Of a stretch of 64,000 nt of DNA, positions 8,446 through 33,079 are shown one piece after another. The notes beneath the pieces are model-generated. The model was given only the letters and a program-made list of their open reading frames with translations. It was not told the DNA's origin and ran no database searches. Made by a program: the position numbers and the translations under genes. The stretch comes from Bacteroidota bacterium. Its GTDB lineage: Bacteria > Bacteroidota > Bacteroidia > Chitinophagales > Chitinophagaceae. Numbering within the stretch: position 1 is the stretch's first letter; each line of letters opens with the position of its first letter. The DNA lies in contig JAFDXE010000006.1 of the NCBI GenBank assembly GCA_018268085.1, positions 1 through 64,000 on the forward strand, written 5' to 3'.

Positions 8446-8499
8446 AATCGTTAATTTTACACAAAGAAACAAAAAAAACAACGATCAAACGATGGTTTT

Positions 8500-9000
8500 A
8501 TGAGTTTAGACAATTTTCAACTGACTCCATTTCTGGCAGGAGAATTATACAAAGATTCACTGGTTGATTTAGATATAAACCAATCAAAACCCCAATCTGT
8601 TAAGAGCGAAAATCTTATGTATTTGGGTGATAACAACAGGCAGATACTCTTAATAGTGGATGAAGAAAACGCAGTTTTTTTAACGGATGAAGACCTGAAT
8701 TTCCTGATCGGTGTACTTAATGCCTGTTCGCTAACCGTTGGCGATATTGCCCTGGTAAACATATGGAAGAATTCCTCCATAAATTTCAACAGGTTACAGG
8801 ATAATTTTAAACCGGCATATACCATAGCTTTTGGTATTAACCTGGAAGCGTTGGGATTTCCATTAAGTTTCCCGGATTACCAGGTACAGCAGTATAACCA
8901 GCAACTTTTCCTGTCGGCTCCGGCATTATCTATTCTTGCTACCGACAAAAAAGAAAAAGTACAACTTTGGAATTGCCTGAAGAAAATGTTTTCACTTTAA
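8500..9000 (+). CDS. Conserved hypothetical, resembles DNA polymerase III psi subunit (HolD)
   Basis: A 166-residue cytosolic protein with no signal peptide. Two stretches recall the psi clamp-loader subunit of gammaproteobacteria: LLIVDEENAVFLTDEDLNFL followed by a helix and GDIALVNI, which parallels the segment of E. coli psi containing LVMVANDLPALTDPLVSDVL; and the C-terminal SAPALSILATDKKEKVQLWN, which parallels its ASPALTDLRANPTARAALWQ. The shared core is SPAL..L......K..LW. This was read by eye against remembered sequence and is an inference, not a database result. It is the first gene of a tight forward unit with rdgB (13-base gap) and a thioesterase. A structural similarity to the uracil-DNA-glycosylase fold would be expected if correct. 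Confidence 0.45.
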   Translation: MSLDNFQLTPFLAGELYKDSLVDLDINQSKPQSVKSENLMYLGDNNRQILLIVDEENAVFLTDEDLNFLIGVLNACSLTVGDIALVNIWKNSSINFNRLQDNFKPAYTIAFGINLEALGFPLSFPDYQVQQYNQQLFLSAPALSILATDKKEKVQLWNCLKKMFSL

Positions 9001-9013
9001 CTAAATAAAATTT

Positions 9014-9604
9014 ATGCCGGCACTGATATTCGCCACCAACAATAAGAATAAAGTAGACGAGATACGTTCTGTTTTAGATAACCGTTATGAGATCATTTCA
9101 TTGAAAGAAGCGGGTATTTTAATTGAAATTCCTGAACCACATCAAACACTGGAAGAAAATGCTTCAGAAAAATCAAAAACAATTTTCACATTAACAGGGA
9201 AAGATTGTTTCAGTGAAGATACAGGGCTTGAAGTTGAGGCACTAAATGGTGAACCCGGCGTAAGAAGTGCCCGTTATGCCGGAGATGAAAGCGATTTCAA
9301 AAAAAATATACAGAAGTTACTCAGCAACCTGGGAGAAAACAGCAACCGGAAAGCCTGTTTCAAGACAATAATTTCACTGATCCTTGACGGCAAGGAATAT
9401 ATGTTCGAAGGAATATGTGATGGAACAATAATTAATGAAGAAAGAGGAACAGGAGGATTTGGTTACGATCCGGTATTTATTCCTAATGGCGATACAAGAA
9501 CATTTGCCGAGATGAGCATGGATGAAAAAAATAAATTCAGTCATCGTAAAAAAGCAACAGCTAAACTTATAGAATTTTTAAACAACAGATATGGCAAGAA
9601 TTAA
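9014..9604 (+). CDS. rdgB: Non-canonical purine NTP pyrophosphatase (RdgB/HAM1)
   Basis: Hydrolyses dITP, XTP and ITP to the monophosphates, keeping deaminated purines out of DNA and RNA. It has 196 residues, normal for the family. Motifs: ATNNKNKVDEIR at the N-terminus, LEENASEKSKT, the metal-binding and catalytic FSEDTGLEVEALNGEPGVRSARYAG, GGFGYDPVF, and FAEMSMDEKNKFSHRKKA near the C-terminus. It overlaps the following thioesterase gene by 14 bases and follows the HolD-like gene closely, so the three are almost certainly one transcript. Confidence 0.96.
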   Translation: MPALIFATNNKNKVDEIRSVLDNRYEIISLKEAGILIEIPEPHQTLEENASEKSKTIFTLTGKDCFSEDTGLEVEALNGEPGVRSARYAGDESDFKKNIQKLLSNLGENSNRKACFKTIISLILDGKEYMFEGICDGTIINEERGTGGFGYDPVFIPNGDTRTFAEMSMDEKNKFSHRKKATAKLIEFLNNRYGKN

Positions 9605-10025
9605 ATTACACATTCCGGAGTTGATTTTGGATACTGTAACCATACCCGTTAGAATTACTGATATCAATTACGGCAACCACCTTGGGAATGATTCATTAGT
9701 AAGTATTGTTCATGAAGCAAGGATGAAGTGGCTCACCAATTACAATTATTCTGAAATGAATGTTGAAGGTGCCAGCCTCATCATGGGCGACCTGGCAGTA
9801 GAGTTCCTGGGAGAATCATTTTATGGCGATATCCTTTCCATAGATATTGCTGTTGGTGAAATAACAAGGGTAAGTTTTGAATTATTTTATTCCATCCAAA
9901 CGGTTCGCAATAATAAAAGCATCATCATTGCAAAAGCTAAAACAGGTATGATTTGCTATGATTATAAGAACAGAAAACTGATGGAAGTGCCCGATAAATT
10001 CAAGACTTTTTTATCAGGTTCATAA
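9591..10025 (+). CDS. Hotdog-fold acyl-CoA thioesterase (4HBT family)
   Basis: A 144-residue single hotdog domain. The active-site region TDINYGNHLGNDSLVSIVHEARMKWL carries Asp24 and the small residues typical of the 4-hydroxybenzoyl-CoA-thioesterase-like/YbgC group, followed by the long central helix. The rest forms the expected sheet (GDLAVEFLGESFYGDILSI, SFELFYSIQT, AKAKTGMICYD). The acyl substrate cannot be told. It starts inside rdgB (14-base overlap) and its 3' end overlaps the end of the convergent aroE gene by 6 bases. Confidence 0.85.
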   Translation: MARIKLHIPELILDTVTIPVRITDINYGNHLGNDSLVSIVHEARMKWLTNYNYSEMNVEGASLIMGDLAVEFLGESFYGDILSIDIAVGEITRVSFELFYSIQTVRNNKSIIIAKAKTGMICYDYKNRKLMEVPDKFKTFLSGS

Positions 10026-10760
10026 GGCATTCCAGATCTTCCAGTTTTCTTCGGCCTGTAACACCAGCATTTCAAATCCGTTTTTAACAGTAGCCCCCCT
10101 TTCCTCCCCCAGTTGAAGAAATTTTGTTTTTGAAGGAGAATAAATTAAGTCGAACAACAGATTTTTTTCCGAAAGGAATTCATACGGCAACTGCGGGTAT
10201 TCGTGAACGTTCGGGCTCATCCCAACAGGTGTGCAGTTAATGATCACCGGATATTCCTGTAGCAGTGCTTCGCTGATCTGCCTGTATTGAATATACTTGC
10301 CTGTATGCTTATCACTACTTGTTACAATCAAAAATTCAATGCCCTTCTTTGTTAATACATATTGCACGGCTTTTGAAGATCCGCCGCTACCCAATACCAG
10401 TGCTTTTGGATGACTGGCTTTTAACAAAGGAGAAAGCGATTGTTCAAAACCTGTACTATCAGTATTATACCCGTAACATTTTCCTTCAATTATTCTGATA
10501 CAGTTTACTGCACCTACTGCTTCGGCAACAGGATCTATTTTATAAAGAAAAGGTAAGACGGCTTCTTTGTAAGGTATGGTAACAGCAAGCCCTTGTAAAT
10601 TCGTTTCAGATTTAATGAGATTGCCAATACGATCGATATGACTGATGGGAAAAAGTTCGAAAGAACAATCTGTTATTTGTTCCCGTATAAATTTTTCGGT
10701 GAAATATTGTTTTGAAAATGAATGGCCAAGCGGATAACCAATTAAGCCATAAAGTTTCAT
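10020..10760 (-). CDS. aroE: Shikimate dehydrogenase
   Basis: Reduces 3-dehydroshikimate to shikimate with NADPH in chorismate synthesis. The protein has 246 residues, somewhat short of the 270 usual in E. coli but typical for Bacteroidetes. Substrate-binding Ser pair in GYPLGHSFSKQYF, catalytic Lys in VTIPYKEAV, Asn and Asp in GAVNCIRI and YNTDSTGFEQSL, and the nucleotide-binding GSGGSSKAV loop are all present. It begins 6 bases after the stop of the phosphosulfolactate synthase gene, so the two share a transcript. Confidence 0.94.
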   Translation of the reverse strand: MKLYGLIGYPLGHSFSKQYFTEKFIREQITDCSFELFPISHIDRIGNLIKSETNLQGLAVTIPYKEAVLPFLYKIDPVAEAVGAVNCIRIIEGKCYGYNTDSTGFEQSLSPLLKASHPKALVLGSGGSSKAVQYVLTKKGIEFLIVTSSDKHTGKYIQYRQISEALLQEYPVIINCTPVGMSPNVHEYPQLPYEFLSEKNLLFDLIYSPSKTKFLQLGEERGATVKNGFEMLVLQAEENWKIWNAL

Positions 10761-10766
10761 GAAAGC

Positions 10767-11528
10767 TTATTTATTGAGGTATAATGAAAATGTATCGCCT
10801 CTTAAACCAATACGCATGGCTTCGAGTGGCAACACTTCGGTTGGTGCGATATTGCCCAGGTTCACATTGCAACCTATTAATTCAAGAAAATACAATTGTT
10901 GTGCTTTCTGCGGCGCTTCCCATAATATCTTTTCCTCCGGGATCTGCGTAAGGATTTCCTGTACTAACCCCTCCCTTACTTCTCCAGATCCACGATATAT
11001 ACCTACATTACCGGCTTCCCTCGCTTCAGCTATCACGTAAGTTGAACCTGCATTCAATTCTGCCTTCATCAGTTCAATCCATTTGTATGGCGGGATAATA
11101 TGAGCGGCATCTTTACTTCCAACTTCACTTAACACAACGCCATGTTTTGTAAGCTTTTCTATATAACCGCATTTTTCCGCATGTGGAATTGTAATTGATC
11201 CATCACTCACTTCCATATAGCTAACTCCAAAATCTTTACAAACAGCTATATAATCTTCAAACTGGTTCCTGATCAAAAATGCTTCAAATAAAGTACCGCC
11301 AAAATAAACGGGAATATCAAAAGACCGGTAAACTTCAAGTTTCTCACGCAGATTTGGAGTAACATATGATGTACCGAATCCAAGTTTTACCACATCTACA
11401 TGCGGATGTGCAATACTCATAAAATTGCTGGCTTCCTGGATGCTTAAACCTTTATCCATCACCATAGTGATACCGTTAGTACGTGGCTTCGCTGTCCTGT
11501 CGGGAATTTGTGTAAGATTAAAATTCAT
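10767..11528 (-). CDS. comA: Phosphosulfolactate synthase (ComA family)
   Basis: ComA adds sulfite to phosphoenolpyruvate to give phosphosulfolactate, the first step of coenzyme M synthesis in methanogens. This 253-residue protein shows the family pattern KPRTNGITMVMDKGLS, VDVVKLGFGTSYV, VYFGGTLFEAF, MEVSDGSITIP, LSEVGSKDA, VIAEAREAGNVGIYR and LWEAPQKAQQ. No comB or comC partner lies nearby. Bacteroidetes do not make coenzyme M; a link to sulfonolipid or other C3-sulfonate metabolism is a guess. Followed at 6 bases by aroE. A -7 box TAtcTTTG (11549-11556, reverse strand) lies 20 bases before the ATG. Confidence 0.85.
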   Translation of the reverse strand: MNFNLTQIPDRTAKPRTNGITMVMDKGLSIQEASNFMSIAHPHVDVVKLGFGTSYVTPNLREKLEVYRSFDIPVYFGGTLFEAFLIRNQFEDYIAVCKDFGVSYMEVSDGSITIPHAEKCGYIEKLTKHGVVLSEVGSKDAAHIIPPYKWIELMKAELNAGSTYVIAEAREAGNVGIYRGSGEVREGLVQEILTQIPEEKILWEAPQKAQQLYFLELIGCNVNLGNIAPTEVLPLEAMRIGLRGDTFSLYLNK

Positions 11529-11548
11529 TTGCTGGTTCTTAATTGCCG

Positions 11549-11556
11549 CAAAGATA
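11549..11556 (-). promoter_or_regulatory. Putative -7 box of comA-aroE
   Basis: TAtcTTTG followed by CGGC on the reverse strand, 20 bases before the comA ATG. Perfect match to the Bacteroidetes -7 consensus; no clear TTG is found at the -33 position. Confidence 0.5.
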
Positions 11557-11606
11557 TTTAATCAGGATAAATAAATGGTTTAAAATAAATGGCTAAAATG
11601 GGATGC

Positions 11607-13028
11607 TCAACGGCTTTTTTTCTTCTTGTATTTAGCAATAAGTTCAACTACCTGCTGGTGCTGAAGTATTGACGGATTTATTTCAATGAATTGTTTTATG
11701 AGTTTTGGATTTACCGTCATTCCATTCTCCAGGCAAATCAATGCTTCTTTAGATTTCCCGGTTGCAAACAGGAACATGCTTTTAAAAAAAATAAAAAGTG
11801 GTTTGGAATCCGTTTGTTCAAAGGCAAATGCAGCGTATTCAAGCCCTTCTTCATATAACTTCCCAACGTACAGGCATTTCAATAACTCTGACCAACCGGT
11901 GATATTTTTGGGTCTAACTCTTACAACATTTCCAAAATAAGTAATGGCTTCATCAATATTTCCCAACTGCATATAACATCTGCCTAAAGCCAGGTTGTAT
12001 TCGGGTTGCATTACATGCATTTTAGCAGCAGTTTCCAGCGATTTAATTGCATTGTGCCACACCCCTTCATTCATATAAGTGCAAGCAATTTTATAGTGCA
12101 TCTGACTGTCTTCAGGACTTAAATGTGAGGCTTTTTTGTAGTTAAACCTTGCCTGTGCGAAGTTTCCGGTTTTATCATAACAATGCCCGATCGCCTCGTA
12201 TATTACCGCTTCTGGCCTGGTAAGTTCCAGTACTTTTTCCAATACTTCCATTGCATCCTTATACTTTCTGAGTTTAATGAAAGCATCGCCCATATTGCGG
12301 TAGGCATAATCAAATTTTTCGTCGATAGCTACAGCATACTGATATGCATCTATAGCTTTTTCATAAAGCTTCAAACCCTGGTAAGCTGCGCCCAGGTTAA
12401 ACCAGGCCAGCTCATTGAATGGGAATTCTTCAATTATTTCCTGATGTAGTTTTATTCCTTCCTCATTTCTACCTGTGAAATCTGTCCAGAAACATATTTT
12501 ATACAGTGCCTCTTCATTCGAAGGATCCTGTTCCAGAATTATTTTAAGGCAATCAAATACCTTTTCAAAATTTTCGTAATCGTCGTACACATCTGCCAAC
12601 TCGAATAACAGGTCAATTTTTTCTTCTCCTTCAAAAGTTTCGATAGCAGCTTCAAGCAGGACAGCAGCTTTTTCCTGCATATCCAGCGCCAGGTAAGCGT
12701 CTGTTTTGAGTATGTAAAGAGATGAATCTGTGCTGTCCAGTAATTCAGCCTGCTCAAGTGTATATAACGATTCTCTATACCGACGAAGCGAAATCAGAAG
12801 ATCTGCTTTCTTTATTAGCAGGGAGGCAGAATAAGGGTACTGTTGTATAGCTGTTTCAGCAGCTTCCAAGGCATGGGTATATTGCTCTTTTTCATCAAAA
12901 TAGTCTATGATTCTTTCGAATCCGTCTTCCTCGATGAAACTATAACTTTTTCCAGCCTTCAAATTGGCATATTGCTGTAATAGCTCTTTAAGTTCTTCGC
13001 GGTCTTGTCTGTAAGGGTTTTTACTCAT
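11607..13028 (-). CDS. TPR repeat protein
   Basis: About 473 residues built of tetratricopeptide repeats across nearly the whole length, for example LLIKKADLLISLRRYRESLY, LAWFNLGAAYQGLKLYEKAI, YAYRNMGDAFIKLRKYKDAM and YNLALGRCYMQLGNIDEAIT. I chose the ATG at 13028 (MSKNPYRQD); the open frame extends to 13130 but that part reads like intergenic sequence. No signal peptide, so a cytosolic scaffold is likely. The C-terminus ends in a basic KYKKKKSR. It lies 78 bases upstream of comA on the same strand, with a separate box before comA, so it may be transcribed separately. Partner unknown. Confidence 0.85.
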   Translation of the reverse strand: MSKNPYRQDREELKELLQQYANLKAGKSYSFIEEDGFERIIDYFDEKEQYTHALEAAETAIQQYPYSASLLIKKADLLISLRRYRESLYTLEQAELLDSTDSSLYILKTDAYLALDMQEKAAVLLEAAIETFEGEEKIDLLFELADVYDDYENFEKVFDCLKIILEQDPSNEEALYKICFWTDFTGRNEEGIKLHQEIIEEFPFNELAWFNLGAAYQGLKLYEKAIDAYQYAVAIDEKFDYAYRNMGDAFIKLRKYKDAMEVLEKVLELTRPEAVIYEAIGHCYDKTGNFAQARFNYKKASHLSPEDSQMHYKIACTYMNEGVWHNAIKSLETAAKMHVMQPEYNLALGRCYMQLGNIDEAITYFGNVVRVRPKNITGWSELLKCLYVGKLYEEGLEYAAFAFEQTDSKPLFIFFKSMFLFATGKSKEALICLENGMTVNPKLIKQFIEINPSILQHQQVVELIAKYKKKKSR

Positions 13029-13150
13029 GTTCAATAGGTTATTGTAATTTAACGCAATCAGGAATAAAGAGCAAGTTTCTGATAGAATTTTTGCAGAATA
13101 AGTTATTAAGATTGTTAATAAATATTTCACAAATTCTTTGATGAACGGTA

Positions 13151-20324: not shown

Positions 20325-21929
20325 TTAGTTTATATCCCAGAAAATTCTTCCTGATGCCGGTGTTGCGGTATTTTGAACGTCAATCGTTCCTTGAGCCAAC
20401 ACATTAGCTGAATTATAGTTATACTCATTTTGCGGATAGAACAAACGAACAGGAATAAGATCTGCTGAATTCCTCTGAGGATTTACAGAGATTGGAGGGC
20501 CAGGTAAGAAACCAGCGCCTTCACCGTAAACTACATCAGTTCTTCTCCAGTCAGTCCAAACTTCCCATGGGTTGAAACCGTTAAGCGCAAACCATTTTTG
20601 AGAAAGAATGGTATATAAACCACCACCTGGTAAACCTGGAGCCAATGGACCAGCAGTATAGTCAACATCAGGAAAACCAGCATTCCATGCAAGGTAGTCA
20701 GCCATTTCTGTTGCACCTAAGCCAAACCATGCAAAAGATGCATCCATACCTGATTGTAATAAAGAAGCAGCACTTGGGCCAGAAGTTAACAAACCTCTTT
20801 CTCTTGCTTCAGCCTGTAAGAAGAAGCTTTCAAAGTTTGTTATTATCCATGCTTTAGAAGAAGCTCCATCAGGAGAGTATCCTTGGCCGATAGTAGATAA
20901 TTTATCTCCGGTGTTTCCTGGATTAGTCCCGGCAATTTCACCATATTCAATACCTCTGTGACCACCTGAAGGTGCAGTGTACATAAAGTCAACCCTTGGG
21001 TCTGCATCAACGGTATAGTAACCATCCGCAGTAACTCCTGGAATTGGACCAACAGCAAATGCATTTGCTCTTTCGAGATTACCATTACCCGGAATCACAC
21101 CTGTTTCAGTTAAGATATAGGCACGATAGAACGGAGTAGGTTTGGTACCACTGTAACCAGGATTTAAAAGAGCTGAAGAAGTAAGGAATCCAGAACCTTC
21201 AGCTTCAATTATTGCAGCTTTACCAGCAGCGTCGAAACCTGGAGCTTCGTAAGCATGCAGGATCATACGCAATTTCAAGGTATTTGCAAACTGAATCCAT
21301 GCATTGGTATTTCCTTTAAAAACCAGATCATTTTTTGCAATTTCACTGTTTTTATCAAGTGCAGTTGCATCCGGATCTTTTAATAAAGCAATAGCACGAT
21401 CCAGTTCAACAAAAAGGCTGTCATAAATATCCTGTCCTTTGTCGTAAGCAGGTGTGCGAATTTCTTCAATTGCGAATGCCTGAGTATATGGAACATTTCC
21501 GTAAATATCCACAAGCATTTGGAAATCCAAAGATTTCATAATTCTTCCTATAGCTTCATAAATTCCGGCGCCTTTTGCGTTGGCTCCCTTAATTATGAAA
21601 TCATAATTTGTAGCATTTCCGTACAAACCATTCCATACACCCACATTAAAATCATTCTGGAATTTGTAGGTTTCTTCATCTGTTACATCCTGGTAGCTAC
21701 CGGAACGAGCCCAGTATCCCATCCAGTTTTGTATAAATTTCATATTTGATCCTTCGATCACAGTTGCTGTACTTGTTAATGAAGCAGGGAGGATCAATTT
21801 AAAATCAGCAGTTGCAGACGTTACGTTATCCTGATCTGTATTGCTGAAATCCTGCTTTTTACAACTGTCGGTCATTACTACAATTCCCGCAGCCAGTAGA
21901 GCAAGTTTTGTTATATTCTTAAGATTCAT
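20325..21929 (-). CDS. SusD/RagB-family outer-membrane lipoprotein
   Basis: A 534-residue lipoprotein (Cys23 in VMTDSCKKQD) that forms the lid of a SusC-type transporter and binds its nutrient. It belongs to the SusD-like group 2: FIQNWMGYWARSGSYQ, YEAIGRIMKSLDFQMLVDIYGNVPYTQA, GQDIYDSLFVELDRAI, LANTLKLRMILHA-like helix with FANTLKLRMI, FFLQAEARERG and the C-terminal WFALNGFNPWEVWTDWRRT with RLFYPQNEYNYN. It is 22 bases downstream of susC. The substrate cannot be told: no enzyme gene accompanies the pair, so glycan, peptide or another nutrient are all possible. Confidence 0.93.
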   Translation of the reverse strand: MNLKNITKLALLAAGIVVMTDSCKKQDFSNTDQDNVTSATADFKLILPASLTSTATVIEGSNMKFIQNWMGYWARSGSYQDVTDEETYKFQNDFNVGVWNGLYGNATNYDFIIKGANAKGAGIYEAIGRIMKSLDFQMLVDIYGNVPYTQAFAIEEIRTPAYDKGQDIYDSLFVELDRAIALLKDPDATALDKNSEIAKNDLVFKGNTNAWIQFANTLKLRMILHAYEAPGFDAAGKAAIIEAEGSGFLTSSALLNPGYSGTKPTPFYRAYILTETGVIPGNGNLERANAFAVGPIPGVTADGYYTVDADPRVDFMYTAPSGGHRGIEYGEIAGTNPGNTGDKLSTIGQGYSPDGASSKAWIITNFESFFLQAEARERGLLTSGPSAASLLQSGMDASFAWFGLGATEMADYLAWNAGFPDVDYTAGPLAPGLPGGGLYTILSQKWFALNGFNPWEVWTDWRRTDVVYGEGAGFLPGPPISVNPQRNSADLIPVRLFYPQNEYNYNSANVLAQGTIDVQNTATPASGRIFWDIN

Positions 21930-21951
21930 ATTTCTGAGTATTTAAGATTGA

Positions 21952-24900
21952 TTAGAATGTAAAAATTGCATTTGCACCAAAAATACGTGTTGGAGGCATG
22001 TTATAAGCAGTACTCCTACCAGCAGCATTTCCTGAGTAAGCAGAATTACCATTTGCTGAGAATTCAGGATCTGTCCACTGATTAGATTTAGGCAACCATG
22101 TCAACAGATTTCTAGCAGTAAATCCAATTGTAAGACCTTTAATGGTATTTCCTTTAAAGATCCTTGATGGAACTGTATAGCTCAGTGAAATTTCCCTTAT
22201 TTTCCAGAAAGCGCCACTTGCCAAGTAATTACTAGCTGCATTTGTATTTAAATCTGTATTGTAAAATTCACGTCCCCAAAGTGTGGTATAAATAGAAGTA
22301 TTATCTACATATTTACCTGAACCTGGTGCAGTTTCGTAAACTGAATTAGGGAACACAAACGCTCTGCGGCCATTAGCTGCACTACGTTTAGAGATACCGT
22401 TATCATCAAGGAATGAACCAAGCTGATCAGCAACGATCTGGTTTCCTGTTCTGTATTCACCCGTTACACCAAATGTGAATCCTTTGAAATTAATATTCAA
22501 ATTCAAACCAAGGATATCAGTAGGTAATGTGTTTCCGAAAGTGTGCAAATCGCTGGCAATTGTAGGTAACCCTGTAGTTGCATCAACAATCACTTTTCCT
22601 GTTGCAGGATCTCTTTCGTAATCAGTTAATTTAAATGTATAAACTGGTTTACCAACTATTGCATAGTTGAAGTTTCCGATACCTAATTCATTTGTTCCAT
22701 CAATCAGGCTTGTGATTTTGTTGGTTTGATGCGTGTAGTTTATTTTGAAGTCTACAGACATCTGACCAATTTTAACCAATGGAGTCAATTTCAAATCAAG
22801 TTCAATACCATTGTTCTTGAAAGAACCTGCATTTGCTACCAATGTGTTATATCCGGTAGTATTTGACAATGCAATGTTCAGAATCTGATCGGTATTATCC
22901 TGTGTATAATAGGTAGCTTCGAAATTCACACGATTTTTTAAGAATCCAAGTTCAACACCAACCTCATAGTTTTTAACAAACTCAGGTTTCAATTTAGAAT
23001 AGGTTGTAGTTCCCTGTTGGAATCCTAAAAGGTCATTATATGGATAGAAAGTTCCTGCACCAAATACAGTTGCATTACTGTAAGCAGATACTGAACTTAA
23101 ATTACCAGTACGGGTAACAGCACCACGGATTTTAGCATAGTTGATAATCTTGTTATTATCAAGGCTTGGTATTAATTTATTAATCAATACAGAAGCATTT
23201 ACACCTGGATAGAAGAAGGAAATATCGTTTACACTGTAATTACTTCCAACTGGTGATAACCTGCTGTCTGTATCATAACTTCCTGTTGCTTCCAGGAATA
23301 ATGTTCCTTTATAATCCAATCCAACCCTACCAAACCACCTGCGTAATTTAGTTTTATAGTTAGAAGCTCCGGAAGCAAAATCACCCTGACGAACTGCAAC
23401 ACTTAGGAATTCAGAAAAACCAAGTGTGCTCGCTCCTACTGTAGATGTTTGTCCTTTAATATCTCTTTGAGACCAACCAATTGTTCCATTGATTCCAAGA
23501 TTCTTATACTTTGTATTGAAATTTGCAAAAAATTCCTGAGTATATCTGTTTCCAAAATCAAAGCCAGATGACCTTCCGTACAGTATCGCATCGCTTACTG
23601 AAGAAGTGATATTTAAATTAGCATGATCTCTTAATGTAAGAGCATAAGCGCTGTATTGGAATGGCTCCTGAGTTGTACGAACACGTTGAGTTGTTACATT
23701 CGCACCAAGACGATATACAAAACTTAACCAGTTTGTTAATTTATAATTTAACTCAAGGTTTCCAAAGATATCGTCCAATTTACCTGCTTCACGACGAGTA
23801 TCCTTTGCAAAATATGGCGTTTTACCATTATTGTCAAGATATGGAGTGTAATAACCATCAGGACTAGAGAAATAATCTGTTCTCCAGTTTTTAAATCTTG
23901 AAAGATCATAGTTACCCGGAGCACCGGTTACATCATAATAAATCAATGTATTATTTCCTGTAACGTCATATTTAGTATTGGTATAACGTACATTCAAAAT
24001 TGCTTTGAATTTATTGTATTCTTTTTCTGCTCTGAAAGTAACAGCACGACGTGTTTCAACATCTCCTGGAACGGTTCCGGAAATGTGTACATTCTGAGCG
24101 CTCAGGTAAAAGTCACCTGCCGCATAAGAAACGTCTGTCTGGTTAGTTACACCTGTCTGGAAGAAATTCACACGTCCTTTTGGATTATATGCAAAAGGCA
24201 TAATCAACTTTTCACCATTTGGACCAGTTTGGCCAAACTGCCTGATAGACCCGTCGAAACGTGGACCCCAGCTTTGTTGCTCAATTGGTTCCCAATCTCC
24301 GTCACCGGTTTGTGCATTTTGGTTGTATCCACCACCAAACTCGCTCTGGAATTCTGGCATGTAAGCGATTTTTTCTAACTGAGTAGCCTGAGAAAAAGTA
24401 ATTACCGGCTTTTTTGTTCCACGTTTAGTTGTGATAACAACCGCACCGTTCACCCCTTCCGGACCGTAGATAGCCGTAGCTGAAGATGACTTCAGGATAC
24501 TTACATCTGCAATATCATTTGGGTTAATAGAGTTCAGATAATCTAACGCGATAGGAATACCATCAACGATAAGCATTGGCTGGTTACTACCAGTGATAGA
24601 ACGGATACCACGTAAAGTTAAACGGGTAGTTCCTCTAACACCACTGTTTGTTTGGTTGATCTGTAAACCAGATACTTTACCATTCAAACCCTGTGTAATG
24701 TTAACCGGAGTAGCCTGGGTTAGGTCTTTTGCTTTTACACTTGCGGTTGAATAACCAAGTGAAGCCTTTTGCCTAACCTGTCCCAGTGAAGTAACAACAA
24801 CAGTTGTTAATTCCTGTGCATTTCTAACCATTGCTACAGCAACGGAATTGCCAGAAGCAGGAATTTCCTGTTTGTCATAACCTACTGCAGTGATAACTAA

Positions 24901-25107
24901 TGTAGGAGATGCGCTTTTTACCTTAATGGCAAAATTACCGGCAGCATCACCGTTAACTGCATTCGTTGTGCCCTTTTCTGTGATAGTAGCAAAGCCTACC
25001 GGATTTCCCTGGAGATCTTTTACCTGACCAGTAATAGTCCGACTTTGCGCTGATGCTAATATTCCACTGAACATCAGCATCATGAATAACGTTAAAAATC
25101 TTCTCAT
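21952..25107 (-). CDS. SusC/RagA-family TonB-linked outer-membrane transporter
   Basis: A 1051-residue TonB-dependent transporter. Seen in order: signal peptide (ends LASAQ), a carboxypeptidase-regulatory-like domain (TITGQVKDLQGNPVGFATI...GYDKQEIP), a possible TonB box (TTVVVTSLGQ), the plug with RGIRSITGSNQPMLIVDGIP and ATAIYGPEGVNGAVVITTKRG, and a 22-strand-type barrel ending in the aromatic FTF-type terminus. It is first in the operon with susD and the DUF1735 lipoprotein. No ECF sigma, anti-sigma or hybrid sensor gene is adjacent, so regulation is not visible. Its -10 region has only a weak box (TAttTTTA). Confidence 0.95.
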   Translation of the reverse strand: MRRFLTLFMMLMFSGILASAQSRTITGQVKDLQGNPVGFATITEKGTTNAVNGDAAGNFAIKVKSASPTLVITAVGYDKQEIPASGNSVAVAMVRNAQELTTVVVTSLGQVRQKASLGYSTASVKAKDLTQATPVNITQGLNGKVSGLQINQTNSGVRGTTRLTLRGIRSITGSNQPMLIVDGIPIALDYLNSINPNDIADVSILKSSSATAIYGPEGVNGAVVITTKRGTKKPVITFSQATQLEKIAYMPEFQSEFGGGYNQNAQTGDGDWEPIEQQSWGPRFDGSIRQFGQTGPNGEKLIMPFAYNPKGRVNFFQTGVTNQTDVSYAAGDFYLSAQNVHISGTVPGDVETRRAVTFRAEKEYNKFKAILNVRYTNTKYDVTGNNTLIYYDVTGAPGNYDLSRFKNWRTDYFSSPDGYYTPYLDNNGKTPYFAKDTRREAGKLDDIFGNLELNYKLTNWLSFVYRLGANVTTQRVRTTQEPFQYSAYALTLRDHANLNITSSVSDAILYGRSSGFDFGNRYTQEFFANFNTKYKNLGINGTIGWSQRDIKGQTSTVGASTLGFSEFLSVAVRQGDFASGASNYKTKLRRWFGRVGLDYKGTLFLEATGSYDTDSRLSPVGSNYSVNDISFFYPGVNASVLINKLIPSLDNNKIINYAKIRGAVTRTGNLSSVSAYSNATVFGAGTFYPYNDLLGFQQGTTTYSKLKPEFVKNYEVGVELGFLKNRVNFEATYYTQDNTDQILNIALSNTTGYNTLVANAGSFKNNGIELDLKLTPLVKIGQMSVDFKINYTHQTNKITSLIDGTNELGIGNFNYAIVGKPVYTFKLTDYERDPATGKVIVDATTGLPTIASDLHTFGNTLPTDILGLNLNINFKGFTFGVTGEYRTGNQIVADQLGSFLDDNGISKRSAANGRRAFVFPNSVYETAPGSGKYVDNTSIYTTLWGREFYNTDLNTNAASNYLASGAFWKIREISLSYTVPSRIFKGNTIKGLTIGFTARNLLTWLPKSNQWTDPEFSANGNSAYSGNAAGRSTAYNMPPTRIFGANAIFTF

Positions 25108-25255: not shown

Positions 25256-27343
25256 TTAAAATTTATACTGTAGTTCGGCTCTGATTTCCGATTTTCTGTT
25301 CCCTTTTATTTCATCCAGTCCTGAACCCACCACAGCTTTATTTGCATACAAAAACTGGCCGAATTTTACCCAAACTGATAGCTTTTTGGAAAAATCGTAA
25401 TTACAATTGATATAGTATCTATACCCTTTATCATAGAATACGGGAATAGAAAAATAGTAAAGAACATCAGACTCATAGGCATACAGTCGGCTATTATATC
25501 CCTGAGTTTCAAAATATTGCAGGCGGAAATTGGCCGAAATACGCTTCATCATCGGTTTGTAAAATAAATCCACATACATCAGGAAACCCGATTCATCTGC
25601 CCCTCCTTTTTTATCAAACCAAACCATTTCTACCCTGTTTCTTATTGTAAATGTTGGACTTATCTTATATCCAAGTTGTGTTCTCCAGTTCTTCCTGGGC
25701 TGCAAGATCACCGGGTTTAATATTAAATCCTCCGGATTATAGTTTATTGCTTTCGATTCTCTTTTGTATCGGCTGTATATTTCCAATTGTTTGTTGGGCT
25801 TGTAGGTAACCTGGGCAAAATAATCAGTACCATTGGTTGGCGCATCTACTCGATATCTCAACCAGGGGAACTTATATATATCCATGTAAGCATCAATCTG
25901 CCACTGCATTGCCGGCCTGATGGTGATTCCTGTGAATAACCCCTTTTCATTGGAAGGTAAAGTACTCTCGGTAAATGCGTTAGTGTATAAAGACTGATAT
26001 TTCCTTGAAATATTGCGATATAAAAGACTCATGTCTACATTATTGGAAACACTTACCAATAAACCGTTGATGAAAGCAGTTCCGTTTTGCGAAGACATAG
26101 CCGCTTCTCCAAAAAAATGAAGGTTTTTGAAAGTATAACTGTAGTCAACACTATAATTACCAAAATGCTTACCCGATAATGCATAACTATTATAGGGAAG
26201 TGGCTCTTTCACCAGAGGTACTTTAAACTGGAACTGAATTGCATTAACTCCTATATGCAAGCGGCCTGATTGAATAGAAGCATTTCCACCATAGGCCAAT
26301 TGACGCTGACTACCCTTATCTTCTATCTCACTTTTTGTTCTATGGTATCCGGAGGTTTGCAGTGATGATATATAATCATCTGTTGTTTGCAGTGTGTCAG
26401 TTACAAAATTTGCATCAGTTTTCCTGTAGGACCCGAAAACAGTAAGCTGCCAGTTGCGCTTTCCGATGGTAATTCCTGCTCCCCGGTGAAAATTAATTTC
26501 TGCAGCCGAATTATAAGGACGCAATACGGCAGATTGCCTTTTAATAGATACGATATCCGGTCCCTTTTTGAAAGCCAGACTTTGCCATTGCGTAAGCCCC
26601 TGGCCCAGGTTTACTGTAAAATCTCCTAATGCCAACGATTTAATAATTCCAAGATTTCTGATAAATAAATGAGCGGAATAAAAATCAAATCCGCTTTTCT
26701 GGCTTCCTTTAAAAAATTCCTCTCCGGCATCCTTTTCTGCAACTATTCCATATTGAAGGAGGTTTTTATATACATATTTATATCGCAACATTAATTTTTG
26801 GGGAGAACCGTAATAAAAGCTTTTAGTGGAAGAATGGTCAATCAGGAAACCCTCGGACCGTTCCAGTGTTTGTGAATACCTGAATAATATGGAGTGCTGG
26901 CCGTTTGAAAACCTTGATGATAAATCTTTCCCCGCCTGGCCATTTCTTCCTATGGAAACATAAGGTAGTAACCGTTGTATCATCCGGATATTCCATCCGG
27001 GAATTGCCTGGAGTTCATAAATGTCTATAAGATTCCCCATCAGGTTCCGGTAAATAACCAGGTTTTGAATCTGCAAGGGAGACAATATCATCAATTCTTT
27101 CAGTAAAGCCTCATCAGCGGTATTCAGATTTACGGGATTCCTTTGAAATTGCACAAGTTCCTGCAGGTAAGAATCGTCTTCTGTTTCTGCATCTTCATTG
27201 TTTTCAGTAATATTTTCCAACTGTTGTTCTGAAGTAGATGAAGGCGCAAGTTCGGGTACGTTTTTAACAGAGTCTGCTACCTGGGCTATAATACCGGTGG
27301 ACACTACTATCAAAAAAAGAAAGACGAGTATAAATTGCTTCAT
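25256..27343 (-). CDS. Outer-membrane barrel with N-terminal helix-hairpin-helix (ComEA-like) domain
   Basis: A 695-residue exported protein. Signal peptide 1-20; an acidic linker (NITENNEDAETEDDS); a ComEA-like helix-hairpin-helix region at about 71-128 (VNLNTADEALLKELMILSPL, then YELQAIPGW); and some 550 residues of alternating beta strands that end in ELQYKF, with the terminal Phe expected of an outer-membrane barrel. The first hairpin lacks the GxG that contacts DNA in true ComEA (it reads LMILSPLQ), so DNA binding is doubtful. I start at the ATG at 27343; a GTG one codon earlier is also possible. That ATG overlaps the upstream barrel gene's TGA by one base (TGATG), so the two are coupled. 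Confidence 0.78.
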   Translation of the reverse strand: MKQFILVFLFLIVVSTGIIAQVADSVKNVPELAPSSTSEQQLENITENNEDAETEDDSYLQELVQFQRNPVNLNTADEALLKELMILSPLQIQNLVIYRNLMGNLIDIYELQAIPGWNIRMIQRLLPYVSIGRNGQAGKDLSSRFSNGQHSILFRYSQTLERSEGFLIDHSSTKSFYYGSPQKLMLRYKYVYKNLLQYGIVAEKDAGEEFFKGSQKSGFDFYSAHLFIRNLGIIKSLALGDFTVNLGQGLTQWQSLAFKKGPDIVSIKRQSAVLRPYNSAAEINFHRGAGITIGKRNWQLTVFGSYRKTDANFVTDTLQTTDDYISSLQTSGYHRTKSEIEDKGSQRQLAYGGNASIQSGRLHIGVNAIQFQFKVPLVKEPLPYNSYALSGKHFGNYSVDYSYTFKNLHFFGEAAMSSQNGTAFINGLLVSVSNNVDMSLLYRNISRKYQSLYTNAFTESTLPSNEKGLFTGITIRPAMQWQIDAYMDIYKFPWLRYRVDAPTNGTDYFAQVTYKPNKQLEIYSRYKRESKAINYNPEDLILNPVILQPRKNWRTQLGYKISPTFTIRNRVEMVWFDKKGGADESGFLMYVDLFYKPMMKRISANFRLQYFETQGYNSRLYAYESDVLYYFSIPVFYDKGYRYYINCNYDFSKKLSVWVKFGQFLYANKAVVGSGLDEIKGNRKSEIRAELQYKF

Positions 27344-28167
27344 CACTTTTTACCCTTAAAATTTGCGATAAGTGAAATTCCGGGAGAAAAACCCAATTCG
27401 GGATGATAACCTGTAGCAATGTCGAGTCGCAGATTTTTCCAGGAAAATCCTATTCCGCCAAAAACACTTCCAGTTTCACTGCCGAAACCCAGCCTGGCAA
27501 AAAATTTCTTTTCAAACTGGTATTGTACCATTCCGGTAACATTTACCGGCTTATCTTCCTCTTTTACCGCTTCTGCACTTACATAAAAGTTTGTTGAGGC
27601 ATCATAACCCATCCCAAACTTATACACAGAAGCGAGTTTTTCCTCTCCCGATTTCCCCAGTTTACCTCCTACCGGACTGTATGTGTGAAAGCCGGCATTC
27701 AGTTTATCCGACAAGTGCAGTAACGCACCAATCTCGAAATTGATAGCCGAAGCATTACCATAAGAAGGTACACGATAACCATAATAATTAAACTGAACAC
27801 CTATATCCACCTTCTTACCCAGGCTTCTTGCATAAGCCAGCCCTACTGCGTTTTCATTAAAATTTGTGAACCCGGCATAATTCAGTTTCACCCCAAAATT
27901 TCCTAAAGCCGTTGGAATGGCTGCCGCTACGGCATAGGCACTATTCTCTGACAATAAAAAACGTTGTTCTCCATATATCCCAATGGCTGCGTTTTTTTGC
28001 CGGGCCAGCGAAGCCTGGTTCCCCACAAAAGAGAATACATCATTTTGCTGCTGACTATAAGCCGACATCGTTATGTATGGCATACTTATGCTATACCTTA
28101 ATGACTGGCCCCTGGAAACAACTACAGAAAATATGGCTACTATAATGAATAATATATTTTTTCTCAA
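27343..28167 (-). CDS. PorV/PorQ-like outer-membrane beta-barrel protein
   Basis: About 274 residues with a signal peptide (MRKNILFIIVAIFSVVVSRG) and a beta-barrel pattern throughout. Residues near QNDVFSFVGNQASLARQKNA resemble the N-terminal NPA-like loop of PorV/PorQ and FadL-like proteins, followed by strands such as VGLAYARSLGKKVDIGVQFN and LNAGFHTYSPVGGKLGK. PorV and PorQ are 14-strand barrels that work with the type IX system; membership here is by appearance only. The start codon is TTG, since no ATG lies before the signal peptide. Coupled to the HhH-barrel gene by a TGATG overlap, suggesting the two proteins form a complex or at least act together. Confidence 0.65.
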   Translation of the reverse strand: MRKNILFIIVAIFSVVVSRGQSLRYSISMPYITMSAYSQQQNDVFSFVGNQASLARQKNAAIGIYGEQRFLLSENSAYAVAAAIPTALGNFGVKLNYAGFTNFNENAVGLAYARSLGKKVDIGVQFNYYGYRVPSYGNASAINFEIGALLHLSDKLNAGFHTYSPVGGKLGKSGEEKLASVYKFGMGYDASTNFYVSAEAVKEEDKPVNVTGMVQYQFEKKFFARLGFGSETGSVFGGIGFSWKNLRLDIATGYHPELGFSPGISLIANFKGKK

Positions 28168-28288
28168 AGCACTTTGTTTTCACTTTACAATTTAAGGATT
28201 TCTGCTTAACGAAATTGAATTATGGAACACATAAGTTTAAATCTCCGTTATTGAATTGAAAACTTATATCCTATTCACTTTTCAATCT

Positions 28289-28296
28289 TACTTTTG
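28289..28296 (+). promoter_or_regulatory. Putative -7 box abutting folD
   Basis: TActTTTG followed by CGGC; only four bases separate it from the ATG at 28301, implying a leaderless or nearly leaderless mRNA. A -33 TTG is not evident. Confidence 0.45.
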
Positions 28297-28300
28297 CGGC

Positions 28301-29182
28301 ATGAAAATTTTAGATGGAAAACTGGTTTCTCAATCAGTGAAAGATGAATTAAAAAAACAGGTTGATGCATTAATAGCCCGAAACAAAAAGGTACCACATC
28401 TTGCCGCTGTTTTAGTAGGCACTAATGGCGCCAGTGAAACGTATGTAGCAAGTAAAATAAAAAACTGTGCGGAAACGGGTTTTAAAAGCTCACTGGTAAG
28501 ACTAAACGAAGATGTTGCCGAATCGGACTTAATAGAAGCAATTGAAAAATTAAATAATGATGAAGATGTTGATGGTATCCTCGTTCAGTTGCCATTACCG
28601 AAACATATAAATGAAGAAAAGATCATTAACCTGATTCGCCCGGATAAGGATGTGGATGGATTTCATCCTCAGAATACAGGTAAACTGCTGCTTGGTCAGC
28701 CAACGTTTATCCCTGCAACTCCTTATGGAATTATGCTGATGCTTGAACATTACGCTATTGAAACAGCCGGTAAACATGCCGTGGTGATCGGCCGGAGTAA
28801 TATTGTGGGAAGGCCCATGAGTATCCTGCTTAGTTTAAATACAAATCCGGGTAACTGCACCGTAACGTTGTGCCATAGCCGAACAAAAAATCTAGATAAT
28901 TTTTGCCGGGAGGCTGATATCATCGTGGCTGCACTGGGTAAACCCGGATTCCTAACCGCAGATATGGTTAAAGAAAATGCTGTAGTAATTGATGTGGGTA
29001 TTACCAGGGTTCCGGATGCAACAAAAAAATCCGGATTTTCCATTAAAGGTGATGTTGACTTCAACAATGTTGCACCCAAATGCAGTTACATAACACCTGT
29101 ACCCGGCGGAGTAGGATTGATGACCATTGCAGCATTATTAAAGAACACATTCAATGCGTATAAAGCAAAACACGGAATGTGA
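28301..29182 (+). CDS. folD: Methylenetetrahydrofolate dehydrogenase / cyclohydrolase
   Basis: Interconverts 5,10-methylene-THF and 10-formyl-THF with NADP, feeding purine and formyl-Met synthesis. It has 293 residues from the ATG at 28301, where the conserved MKILDGKLVSQSVKDEL begins; the open frame extends upstream to 28256 but into the promoter. Tyr48 and Lys52 in ETYVASKIK are the catalytic pair; ILVQLPLPKHI, DKDVDGFHPQN, VVIGRSNIVGRPM and the terminal PVPGGVGLMTIAALL are intact. It stands alone and is followed after 32 bases by queE. Confidence 0.97.
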   Translation: MKILDGKLVSQSVKDELKKQVDALIARNKKVPHLAAVLVGTNGASETYVASKIKNCAETGFKSSLVRLNEDVAESDLIEAIEKLNNDEDVDGILVQLPLPKHINEEKIINLIRPDKDVDGFHPQNTGKLLLGQPTFIPATPYGIMLMLEHYAIETAGKHAVVIGRSNIVGRPMSILLSLNTNPGNCTVTLCHSRTKNLDNFCREADIIVAALGKPGFLTADMVKENAVVIDVGITRVPDATKKSGFSIKGDVDFNNVAPKCSYITPVPGGVGLMTIAALLKNTFNAYKAKHGM

Positions 29183-29214
29183 TTTTGATAAATAAATTTA
29201 ATTAAGAACAGGCT

Positions 29215-29835
29215 TTGAAAATACAATCTACAGATACCATTGCCCTTCCGGTAATGGAACACTTTTATACCATACAGGGTGAAGGTTTTCACCAGGGACG
29301 GGCTGCTTATTTTATACGACTTGGCGGTTGTGATGTTGGTTGTGTTTGGTGTGATGTAAAAGAAAGCTGGGATGTACATGCTCATCCGTTAATTACTATT
29401 GATGCACTCGTTTCATTCGTTAAACAAACACCAGCAAAACTTGTAGTAATTACCGGTGGCGAACCTCTATTGCATAACCTTGATGCATTAACTACGGCAT
29501 TGCAGGATGCCGGGCTCGAAACAAATATTGAAACATCAGGTGCTCATCCATTGAGTGGTAAATGGAACTGGATCTGTTTGTCGCCCAAAAAATTCAAAGC
29601 TCCCCTACCCGGCATTCTGCCGCACGCAAATGAATTAAAGATAATTGTGTTTAATGCTTCTGATTTTGAATGGGCAGAAAAATATGCCGCCCAGGTAACG
29701 CCCGGATGTAAATTATTTCTGCAGCCGGAATGGGATAAGTCGGGAACCATCAGTCCTATGATCATCGATTATATTAAACAACACCCGCAATGGGAATTAT
29801 CGTTGCAGATACACAAATACATCAATGTTCCGTAG
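29215..29835 (+). CDS. queE: 7-carboxy-7-deazaguanine synthase (radical SAM)
   Basis: Radical SAM enzyme that contracts 6-carboxy-tetrahydropterin to 7-carboxy-7-deazaguanine in queuosine synthesis. About 206 residues. The cluster motif CX3CX2C is at Cys39, Cys43, Cys46 (GGCDVGCVWCD), preceded by YTIQGEGFHQGRAAYFIRLGG and followed by VVITGGEPLLH. The start is a TTG at 29215; an ATG at codon 14 would remove part of the conserved N-terminus, so the TTG is preferred. No queC, queD or queF lies in the window. Confidence 0.93.
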   Translation: MKIQSTDTIALPVMEHFYTIQGEGFHQGRAAYFIRLGGCDVGCVWCDVKESWDVHAHPLITIDALVSFVKQTPAKLVVITGGEPLLHNLDALTTALQDAGLETNIETSGAHPLSGKWNWICLSPKKFKAPLPGILPHANELKIIVFNASDFEWAEKYAAQVTPGCKLFLQPEWDKSGTISPMIIDYIKQHPQWELSLQIHKYINVP

Positions 29836-29936
29836 TGATTATACAAGAACTGCTTTAAAAGATTACACGGCTGTTAACTGTTTGCGCTTTCATTCTTCTG
29901 CAGGATATAGTACCTTCATACACTGAAACAAAGAAA

Positions 29937-31871
29937 ATGACCCAACGATTCTATACAAAAGCGTGTTGCTTTTTAATAGCCGGGATTTTAATTTCCCTTC
30001 TCACACAGGCACAGTGGTACGATCCTGATAAAGTAAATAAAAAAGCAAGAGACATATACGGCGTTGCTTTTGATGATGCTATGGCCGGCAATTATGAAGC
30101 CTCCCTCCAGAAAATTGAAGCCGCACTGAAAATAGAGCCGAAATTCGTAGAAGCTTATTTATCACGTGCAGGCGTGTACGCAGAAATGAGAAACTATAAA
30201 TCATCTGTAGCCGATTTTGAAAAAGGTTTTGCTCTTGATGCTGTTTTTGCATCCACCTACCTGCTCCCCTACTCCATTTCGCTTGCAGGAACCGGGCAAT
30301 TCGACAGGGCATTAACTGAAGTAAATAAATTCCTTGCAACACCAGGACTCAACCAGCAAAGCATAAAAGCAGGAAACTACCGGAAAAGCACATACGAATT
30401 TGCACTGGATTATGCAACCAAACATCCTGCCGGCAATTATACATTTGCACCGGTAAACCTCGGCGACAGTGTAAACACAAAATACCTGGAATATTATCCT
30501 TCATTAACCATTGACGGAAAAAAACTCATTTTCACGAGAAGAGTTAATGATGATGAAGATTTTTATGAATCCGATCTTATTGATGAGAAATGGAGCAAGG
30601 CCAAACCGGTTGAAGGAAAGATCAACACCAATTTTAATGAAGGCGCCCAGAATATTTCGCAAGATGGACAATGGCTGATTTTTGCAGGATGTAACTACCC
30701 GGAAGGCCAGGGCAGTTGCGACTTATATATTGCTTATAAAATGAAAAACGGCAAGTGGACTGAACCTGAAAACCTCGGGCCAATTGTAAACACTGATTAT
30801 TGGGAATCATCTCCTTCTCTTTCGCCCGACAAAAGAGATTTATATTTCTGCAGCAATATGCCCGGCGGTTATGGAGGAAAAGATATCTGGGTTACCCATC
30901 GCACGCAGGCAGGCAAATGGAGCCGCCCGGAAAATCTCGGACCCGAGATCAATACAAACGGTGATGACGCATGTCCATTCATTCATGCCGATAATCAAAC
31001 ACTTTATTTTAACAGTAACGGACATACCGGTTATGGAAGTACCGACCTGTATGTATCCAGGAAAATAAATGACAGCACCTGGAGTGAACCTGTAAATCTC
31101 GGCTACCCCGTAAATACGATAGATGACGAAGGTTCATTGATCGTAGCTGCAGATGGGAAAACTGCTTATTATGCCAGTGATGGAAATGAAAGCAGGGGCG
31201 GACTTGATCTCTGTACTTTCAATTTACGGGATGAAATCAGAGCCGCTAAAACCCTTTGGGTAAAAGGCAGGGTGTATGATAACAAAACCAAAAACGGATT
31301 GCCTTCCACGGTTGAACTAACGGACCTGGATAGCCGCAATATCATTTCAAAATTACAAACGGATGAAGAAGGAAATTATCTCGTTACCCTTCCAGAAGGA
31401 AAAGATTATGTATTTAACGTGAACAGGAAAGGATATTTATTCTATTCCGATAACTTTTCACTGCTAAAGAACCTGGCCGATTCGTTTTTTGTAGTAGACA
31501 TCCCACTGCAGCCCATTGAAGCAGGTGCAGCAATTGTATTAAAAAATATATTTTTTGATAACAACAAATCAGCATTAAAACCGGCTTCACTGATAGAATT
31601 AGACAAAGTAGTTGGCCTGCTTACAGACAATCCCAAACTTACCATACAAATCAGCGGTCATACAGATAATGTTGGCAAGGAAGCAGACAATCTTACGTTG
31701 AGCTTAAACAGGGCGAAGTCGGTAACAAATTATATCATCAGTAAAGGAATTGATGCAAAGCGAATTACTTCTAAAGGATTTGGCGCTGCAAAACCGGTTG
31801 CGGGCAATGAAACAGAAGAAGGAAAGGCGATGAACAGGCGAACTGAATTAAATGTCATATCCAATAAATAA
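29937..31871 (+). CDS. PorE-like OmpA-family protein (TPR, beta-propeller, CRD, OmpA)
   Basis: A 644-residue envelope protein with the four-part layout of PorE, a type IX secretion component. Seen: signal peptide 1-26; TPR helices at 37-140; five WD40/PD40 blades at about 180-430 (EYYPSLTIDGKKLIF, GAQNISQDGQWLIF, SSPSLSPDKRDLYF, ACPFIHADNQTLYF, EGSLIVAADGKTAYY); a carboxypeptidase-regulatory-like domain at about 440-505; and an OmpA-type peptidoglycan-binding domain at 533-640 with the diaminopimelate-binding Asp577 and Arg592 region (HTDNVG...LNRAKSV). PorE of Porphyromonas is a lipoprotein; no lipobox Cys is present here, so this is a paralogue or a variant. Similar proteins also occur outside the secretion system. 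Confidence 0.82.
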   Translation: MTQRFYTKACCFLIAGILISLLTQAQWYDPDKVNKKARDIYGVAFDDAMAGNYEASLQKIEAALKIEPKFVEAYLSRAGVYAEMRNYKSSVADFEKGFALDAVFASTYLLPYSISLAGTGQFDRALTEVNKFLATPGLNQQSIKAGNYRKSTYEFALDYATKHPAGNYTFAPVNLGDSVNTKYLEYYPSLTIDGKKLIFTRRVNDDEDFYESDLIDEKWSKAKPVEGKINTNFNEGAQNISQDGQWLIFAGCNYPEGQGSCDLYIAYKMKNGKWTEPENLGPIVNTDYWESSPSLSPDKRDLYFCSNMPGGYGGKDIWVTHRTQAGKWSRPENLGPEINTNGDDACPFIHADNQTLYFNSNGHTGYGSTDLYVSRKINDSTWSEPVNLGYPVNTIDDEGSLIVAADGKTAYYASDGNESRGGLDLCTFNLRDEIRAAKTLWVKGRVYDNKTKNGLPSTVELTDLDSRNIISKLQTDEEGNYLVTLPEGKDYVFNVNRKGYLFYSDNFSLLKNLADSFFVVDIPLQPIEAGAAIVLKNIFFDNNKSALKPASLIELDKVVGLLTDNPKLTIQISGHTDNVGKEADNLTLSLNRAKSVTNYIISKGIDAKRITSKGFGAAKPVAGNETEEGKAMNRRTELNVISNK

Positions 31872-31978
31872 AAAGGGAAGCAGAAAATTCCGGTAATTGA
31901 ATGTGAATTTCCTCCTGCTATCAGCAGAAAAACAACTTTTCAGCACTGCTGCAATATGCTATCATTGTTCATTCTTAT

Positions 31979-33079
31979 ATGAGCAACGATCTCCTCTACC
32001 AGATTGCATTAACACTTGTTCCCGGCATCGGCGATGTACGGATCAAATTACTCATTGAAATATTCGGCGAAGCCCGGGCAGTTTTCAAAGCACCCAGAAA
32101 ACAACTCGAAAAAATAGAAAATATTGGAACGGTGGCTGCCGGCAGTATCAGATCATTTGCTGATTTTAAACGTTGCGAAAAAGAATTGCAGTTCATAGAA
32201 AAATTCAAAATCACCCCGTTGTTTATTACCGATGCTCATTATCCTAAGCGATTGATGAATTGTTACGATAACCCGGCCCTGTTATATTACCGGGGTTCTG
32301 CAGATTTAAACAAATCAAAAATAATTTCAATTGTAGGCACCAGGAACAATACACACTATGGAAAGCAGGTTTGCGAACAATTGATTGCAGACCTCAAAAA
32401 TGAACAAATAATAATTGTAAGCGGACTGGCATTCGGTATCGATACCATTGCACACAAATCCGCATTAAAGGAAAACATTCCTACGGTGGCAGTTCTGGCA
32501 CACGGCCTTGACAGGATTTATCCATCACAAAATAAAATGATGGCCAGGCAAATGGTAGATAATGGCGGGTTGCTCACTGATTTCCCGAGCGAAACCAAAC
32601 CCGACCGGCAGAATTTCCCAAAAAGAAACCGCATTGCGGCAGGCATTTGCGATGCACTGGTTGTGATTGAATCCGGCAAAAAGGGCGGCTCGCTCATTAC
32701 GGCAGAATTGGGATATGGGTACAACAAAGATGTATTTGCATTCCCCGGCAGGTCAACAGATGTAAAAAGTGAAGGTTGCAATTTCCTGATCCAGCAAAAT
32801 AAAGCAGCACTCATCAATAATGCCGATGATCTGCTCACGATGATGAACTGGAAACAGCAGCAAAAGCCTGTTGTGCCACAACAAAGATCTCTTTTCATTG
32901 AATTATCGGCTGATGAAAAAAAACTGGTAGATCTGTTACAGGAAAAAGGAAGCATGCATATAGATGAGCTGTTTACCAGGAGCGGGTTAAGCAGCAGTTC
33001 GGTAGCCGGGGCATTACTGATGCTGGAGATGCAGGGCGTAATTGCTTCACTTCCGGGAAAAGTTTATCAATTGCTGTAA
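31979..33079 (+). CDS. dprA: DNA-processing protein DprA
   Basis: Loads RecA on incoming single-stranded DNA during natural transformation. The 366-residue protein has an N-terminal helix-hairpin-helix/SAM-like part (LVPGIGDVRIKLLIE, ENIGTVAAGSI), the Rossmann core (ISIVGTRNNTHYGKQVCEQLI, VSGLAFGIDTIAHKSAL, VAVLAHGLDRIYPSQN, FPKRNRIAAGICDALVVIE, GGSLITAELGYGYNKDVFAFPG) and a C-terminal winged helix (GSMHIDELFTRSGLSSSSV). Present in many bacteria not known to be competent. It is 107 bases after the PorE-like gene, with a weak -7 box TAtcATTG at 31960-31967. Confidence 0.95.
   Translation: MSNDLLYQIALTLVPGIGDVRIKLLIEIFGEARAVFKAPRKQLEKIENIGTVAAGSIRSFADFKRCEKELQFIEKFKITPLFITDAHYPKRLMNCYDNPALLYYRGSADLNKSKIISIVGTRNNTHYGKQVCEQLIADLKNEQIIIVSGLAFGIDTIAHKSALKENIPTVAVLAHGLDRIYPSQNKMMARQMVDNGGLLTDFPSETKPDRQNFPKRNRIAAGICDALVVIESGKKGGSLITAELGYGYNKDVFAFPGRSTDVKSEGCNFLIQQNKAALINNADDLLTMMNWKQQQKPVVPQQRSLFIELSADEKKLVDLLQEKGSMHIDELFTRSGLSSSSVAGALLMLEMQGVIASLPGKVYQLL

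Follow-up and report, generated by a model that had tools for sequence, protein, structure and literature searches.

Several Bacteroidota import DNA, and the step by which it crosses the outer membrane is not established. The locus described here lies in a 64,000-nucleotide stretch of DNA (the window) from a Chitinophagaceae genome that is Ferruginibacter-like by its closest named loci, and encodes two predicted outer-membrane barrels, one of them fused to a helix-hairpin-helix (HhH) module like that of the competence protein ComEA. Its preliminary description had suggested an envelope complex that handles DNA, which raises the question of whether this gene pair could serve the crossing step.

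The gene pair and its surroundings

Both open reading frames, and the TGATG overlap that joins them, were present as the preliminary description had stated, and the features are as follows (all on the minus strand).

25256..27343, minus: HhH plus predicted 24-strand outer-membrane barrel protein, 695 aa from the ATG at 27343 (ORF, Pfam, AlphaFold2)
27284..27343, minus: signal peptide of the HhH-barrel protein; mature N-terminus Q21, nearly invariant
26948..27136, minus: ComEA-like tandem HhH module, residues 70-132, with degenerate hairpins (MILS; PGWN)
25262..26899, minus: predicted 24-strand barrel, residues 149-694
27341..27345, minus: TGATG stop/start overlap of the PorV-like and HhH-barrel genes
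27343..28167, minus: PorV/FadL-like protein, predicted 14-strand outer-membrane barrel, 274 aa, TTG start, signal peptide at residues 1-20 (ORF, profile, AlphaFold2)

For the HhH-barrel gene the most probable start is the ATG at 27343 (695 aa), not the GTG at 27346. In both proteins the signal peptide ends before Q21, which fits the Q-rule of Bacteroidota (PMC10653852). A scan of the locus for promoters and terminators gave signals that were not above the shuffled background. Directly downstream of the pair is a susC/susD-like pair (TonB-linked barrel and lipoprotein; window 20325-25107, minus strand), and more divergent susC/susD-like genes occupy the same position in many related loci. The T9SS translocon gene sprA is also found in the window (SprA_N match at 46918-48501, minus strand, within a 2431-aa open frame). 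The barrel gene of one related locus (L020, contig 76 of G022) is split into two open frames, and may be a pseudogene or reflect a sequencing error.

On the other side of the pair, the plus strand carries a block (window 28256-33079) made up of folD, a queE-like gene, an OmpA/TPR gene and dprA. The position of dprA, at 31979 and 3.8 kb from the pair, had been taken as a sign of competence, but this argument fails for the window because the folD-queE-ompA-dprA block is conserved synteny of the lineage, and accompanies the pair in most loci of Chitinophagaceae type.

Predicted structures

AlphaFold2 models, computed from alignments of 79 (HhH-barrel) and 66 (PorV-like) homologues, bore out the expectation of two barrels. 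The larger protein was predicted to carry the HhH module at residues 70-132 and, after it, 24 long strands between residues 149 and 694 (pLDDT 91.1, pTM 0.88), and the smaller to form a 14-strand barrel (pLDDT 92.6, pTM 0.84). The placement of the HhH module between signal peptide and barrel also held.

The model of the PorV-like protein matched FadL (Z 27.9), PorV (Z 26.2) and, within the BAM complexes of Bacteroidota, the chains of FadL type (Z 22.8-24.4). That it has the PorV fold, with Z about 26, favors an alternative in which the pair is related to the T9SS: its smaller barrel would shuttle or anchor T9SS cargo, the HhH-barrel would act as an accessory translocon and the HhH module would dock a protein. 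A gene of the PorD family (T9SS PorD, NF052317) was, moreover, the divergent neighbor of the pair in 16 of 40 distant loci. However, the scores of the PorV-like protein were far under the PorV and PorQ equivalog cut-offs (12.9 bits against 250, and a weak 26.4 bits against 90 for PorV_fam), within the phylum sample each of the 49 genomes without sprA (48 of family f35, and G060) had the barrel, and many genomes with sprA had no barrel. This two-way dissociation from sprA, tested for the barrel, largely refutes membership of the T9SS, and we regard such a role as quite unlikely.

The larger barrel was more isolated. The 24-strand ushers FimD and PapC spanned residues 132-695 (Z ~13.5, rmsd 3.8-4.3 over 360-380 residues) and AlgE aligned with part of the barrel (Z 15), but the fold search yielded no PDB chain that stood out as truly related to the barrel part. 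A solved relative was also sought by sequence and set aside, the PDB matches covering the HhH module only. The odd-strand loops, which would face outward given the expected periplasmic N-terminus, were conserved to nearly the same degree as the strands (0.418 against 0.421), and five putative extracellular loops (L2, L3, L7, L8 and L11) exceeded them. Such conservation is unusual at the surface, and suggests a lid, a plug or an invariant ligand.

The HhH module

The HhH module matched Pfam HHH_3 at residues 70-129 just below the cut-off (E 9.6e-6, 26.1 bits against 27), and the A3 profile of the HhH-barrel family retrieved the ComEA crystal structures 8dss (E 1.2e-13), 8dfk and 2duy. On the comE model itself, the protein reached only 16.8 bits against a cut-off of 152. 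Hairpin 1 is without both glycines, reading MILS where PGIG would be expected, and hairpin 2 keeps a single glycine (PGWN). The caveat raised earlier, that the first hairpin had lost the GxG that contacts DNA, was correct and extends to all of the Bacteroidia homologues compared, since GxG occurred in neither hairpin of any of the 107. Among deep-branch homologues it was kept in hairpin 2 in 8 of 33, and ComEA-like hairpins (IPGxN, VPGIG) persist in some deep branches of the phylum. Despite the loss of GxG, an ELQ motif after hairpin 1 and other positions remain conserved, while the net charge of the Bacteroidia module is about neutral. Originally the module probably bound DNA, and in Bacteroidia its contact changed, perhaps to a protein.

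The loss of GxG in Bacteroidia is also what would be expected if the pair formed an exporter or surface-assembly barrel for polysaccharide or another polymer, its HhH module serving as a periplasmic protein dock and any neighboring comEC being incidental. AlgE and the usher barrels are the nearest whole-structure neighbors, an SLBB/Wza-type export gene adjoins the pair in one lineage (L145), and gut Bacteroides, which are not known to transform, carry the barrel. Against this, no association with polysaccharide genes was conserved across lineages, and the ComEA-type hairpins of some deep branches suggest a nucleic-acid origin. Together with the comEC operon described below, this leaves a polymer exporter as an unlikely explanation.

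Coupling of the two genes

The adjacency of the two genes is more than chance. They were adjacent in nearly all of the 94 loci of the first round (Chitinophagaceae-type), the same 4-nucleotide overlap recurring in 50 of about 90 related loci, and again in most distant loci, including those of high-GC deep branches. In Parabacteroides distasonis the neighbor of the barrel gene encodes an unannotated 269-aa protein that is matched by the PorV-like profile (E 2.5e-39). Conserved adjacency across Bacteroidota was thus supported, but it is not universal: no PorV-like gene adjoined the barrel gene in Bacteroides finegoldii, a Prevotella record and several other loci. Of the PorD-family genes that lie divergent to the pair in deep branches, the one at L135 (10265-11176) was identified by profile (PF16119/NF052317), the other 15 being grouped with the family by clustering.

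Rates of change were compared by a mirror-tree analysis of pairwise distances for six linked genes in 31 loci. Barrel and PorV-like protein gave a partial correlation of 0.69, whereas no other pair of genes exceeded 0.46; these values are descriptive because the genome pairs are not independent. Conserved adjacency and this correlation indirectly point to a hetero-complex of the two proteins.

Distribution across the phylum

The barrel profile (E < 1e-40) matched 154 of the 218 genomes of the phylum sample, and the barrel was present in about 180 of 217 genomes of the class Bacteroidia. It was absent from some large families (f24, f23 and f89), which we take by inference to be Flavobacteriaceae-like. 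A defense system was considered and rejected, there being no PADLOC match. Plasmid-borne cargo was likewise rejected, as the sole matches in the plasmid collection were four Bacteroidales records labelled as plasmids; three of these look like chromosomal fragments, and the fourth is a 1.77 Mb replicon. A description of the HhH-barrel was not found in the literature.

Co-occurrence with comEC had been envisaged as the main test of a role in competence, and was dropped. The gene was detected in 215 of the 218 phylum genomes and 215 of the 217 class genomes, and since it is nearly universal, its phylum-wide co-occurrence with the barrel says little. About 37 of the 217 Bacteroidia genomes had comEC without the barrel, and two draft genomes (G388 and G452) had the barrel without a detected comEC. 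Families f22 and f55 include genomes from which comEC and the barrel were both absent.

Linkage to comEC in one family

Support for the competence link came instead from family f22, probably the Sphingobacteriaceae, and from the parallel decay of genes in one closed genome (G297, below). The barrel was present in 61 of 71 f22 genomes and, in 57 of these 61, comEC was the next gene, immediately downstream and on the same strand. In the f22 loci sampled, the reading frames of the pair and comEC abut or overlap, as at L125 (PorV-like 8163-8960, barrel 8947-10998, comEC 10998-13100). Retention of this operon argues against an incidental neighborhood such as a polymer exporter would imply; the linkage was seen in f22 and in none of the other lineages sampled. 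The barrel was missing from all four f22 genomes that lack comEC and from 6 of the 67 that have it (Fisher p 2e-4, kinship ignored), but as the two genes are operonic in this family, they are not independent in such a test. The same four genomes were also without a clear PorV-like gene, and loss of the pair could be hitch-hiking with comEC.

One locus (L196) has a 128-aa reading frame between barrel and comEC (G323 C1:2456911-2457297), perhaps DUF559-like by eye. Most f22 genomes also encode a further HhH protein, about 300 aa long, which may be the counterpart of the Riemerella protein RA0C_RS02645.

Genome G297, a single contig of which 1.5 Mb were read, lacks comEC, the barrel, the PorV-like gene and dprA, whereas its congeners G278, G311 and G323 keep all four. 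The flanks of the operon are present and, between them, remnants of comEC and of the N-terminal part of the PorV-like gene accompany an IS21-type transposase pair (istA/istB, 2271193-2273514), the barrel gene being gone. Fragments of dprA lie between intact neighbors about 650 kb away (decayed genes at C1:2258386-2276177 and 2924662-2925448). Genes that separate the two loci in G278 were found elsewhere in G297, so that a single deletion does not account for the two losses. The pattern is consistent with a history in which transformation was lost and its genes, the pair included, then decayed, but the pair could also have been carried along with comEC.

A candidate route for DNA across the outer membrane

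Two exported barrels, their adjacency and covarying rates, the f22 linkage to comEC, the decay in G297 and independence from sprA lead us to read the pair as a candidate outer-membrane complex serving ComEC-dependent DNA uptake. Counted against this are the near universality of comEC, the comEC-bearing genomes without the barrel, the restriction of the operon to one family, the loss of GxG and the loci where the adjacent partner is missing, and we put the proposal at about even chances. The 24-strand barrel, with a caliber about that of the FimD/PapC ushers, would form a gated passage wide enough for DNA, and its conserved surface loops would act as a lid or ligand site. The HhH module would hang at the periplasmic mouth, gripping DNA in deep branches with intact GxG and, in Bacteroidia, where GxG is lost, docking a periplasmic DNA-handling protein instead. 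The FadL/PorV-type barrel may sit at its side as a partner or serve as a gate, in the manner of PorV with SprA and BamG with BamA, and DNA would then be handed to the stand-alone HhH proteins, about 300 aa in length, and finally to ComEC.

Uptake of extracellular DNA mainly as a nutrient, or the handling of DNA in vesicles or biofilms, with ComEC-dependent transformation a by-product, would explain both the wide retention of the pair in lineages not known to transform and its loss with comEC in places. In the neighborhoods sampled, however, neither secreted nucleases nor nucleotide salvage showed a conserved association with the pair, and we consider this explanation improbable.

A broader form of the uptake proposal is that Bacteroidota, taken broadly as in GTDB, ancestrally imported DNA through an outer-membrane channel formed by this pair, a route separate from that of the secretin and type IV pilus, and that a Riemerella-type barrel took its place in Flavobacteriaceae. 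This we offer tentatively, as a possibility that falls well short of even chances. The barrel, which is widespread, bears a ComEA-type module and has a fixed place beside comEC in one family, provides a single deletable gene with which to approach the question of outer-membrane crossing.

Comparison with known systems

The FimD/PapC ushers share the 24-strand caliber of the large barrel, but neither the usher plug nor the N- or C-terminal usher domains were seen here and identity is ~8%, so the likeness is one of analogy only. ComEA (TIGR01259), the periplasmic dsDNA receptor of competence, is exported and has a tandem HhH of the same type. In the present protein, however, the HhH is fused to a 24-strand barrel and is not a stand-alone protein, GxG is missing in Bacteroidia and the score is far under the comE cut-off; identity as ComEA was rejected on the loss of GxG and the barrel fusion.

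PorV and PorQ of the T9SS, and BamG, the FadL-type partner barrel of BAM (PMC12578637), share with the PorV-like protein a 14-strand FadL fold and pairing with a larger outer-membrane barrel. It differs from them in scoring under the family cut-offs, in being shorter (274 aa) and in its sprA-independent HhH-barrel partner, and identity as T9SS PorV was rejected on the score and the sprA independence of that partner. If the proposed complex is correct, it would extend a pattern of FadL-type partner barrels in Bacteroidota outer-membrane machines (PorV-SprA, BamG-BamA).

A functional parallel is known from Riemerella anatipestifer, where a stand-alone periplasmic HhH protein (RA0C_RS02645) and an outer-membrane barrel (RA0C_RS04915) are both required for transformation, and neither resembles classical competence proteins (PMC8459023). 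The same two functions, HhH and outer-membrane barrel, are divided there between two separate proteins. The barrel RA0C_RS04915 has been reported from Flavobacteriaceae only (PMC8459023), while the HhH-barrel appears to be absent from families of this kind, and this complementary distribution suggests that the two may have equivalent roles.
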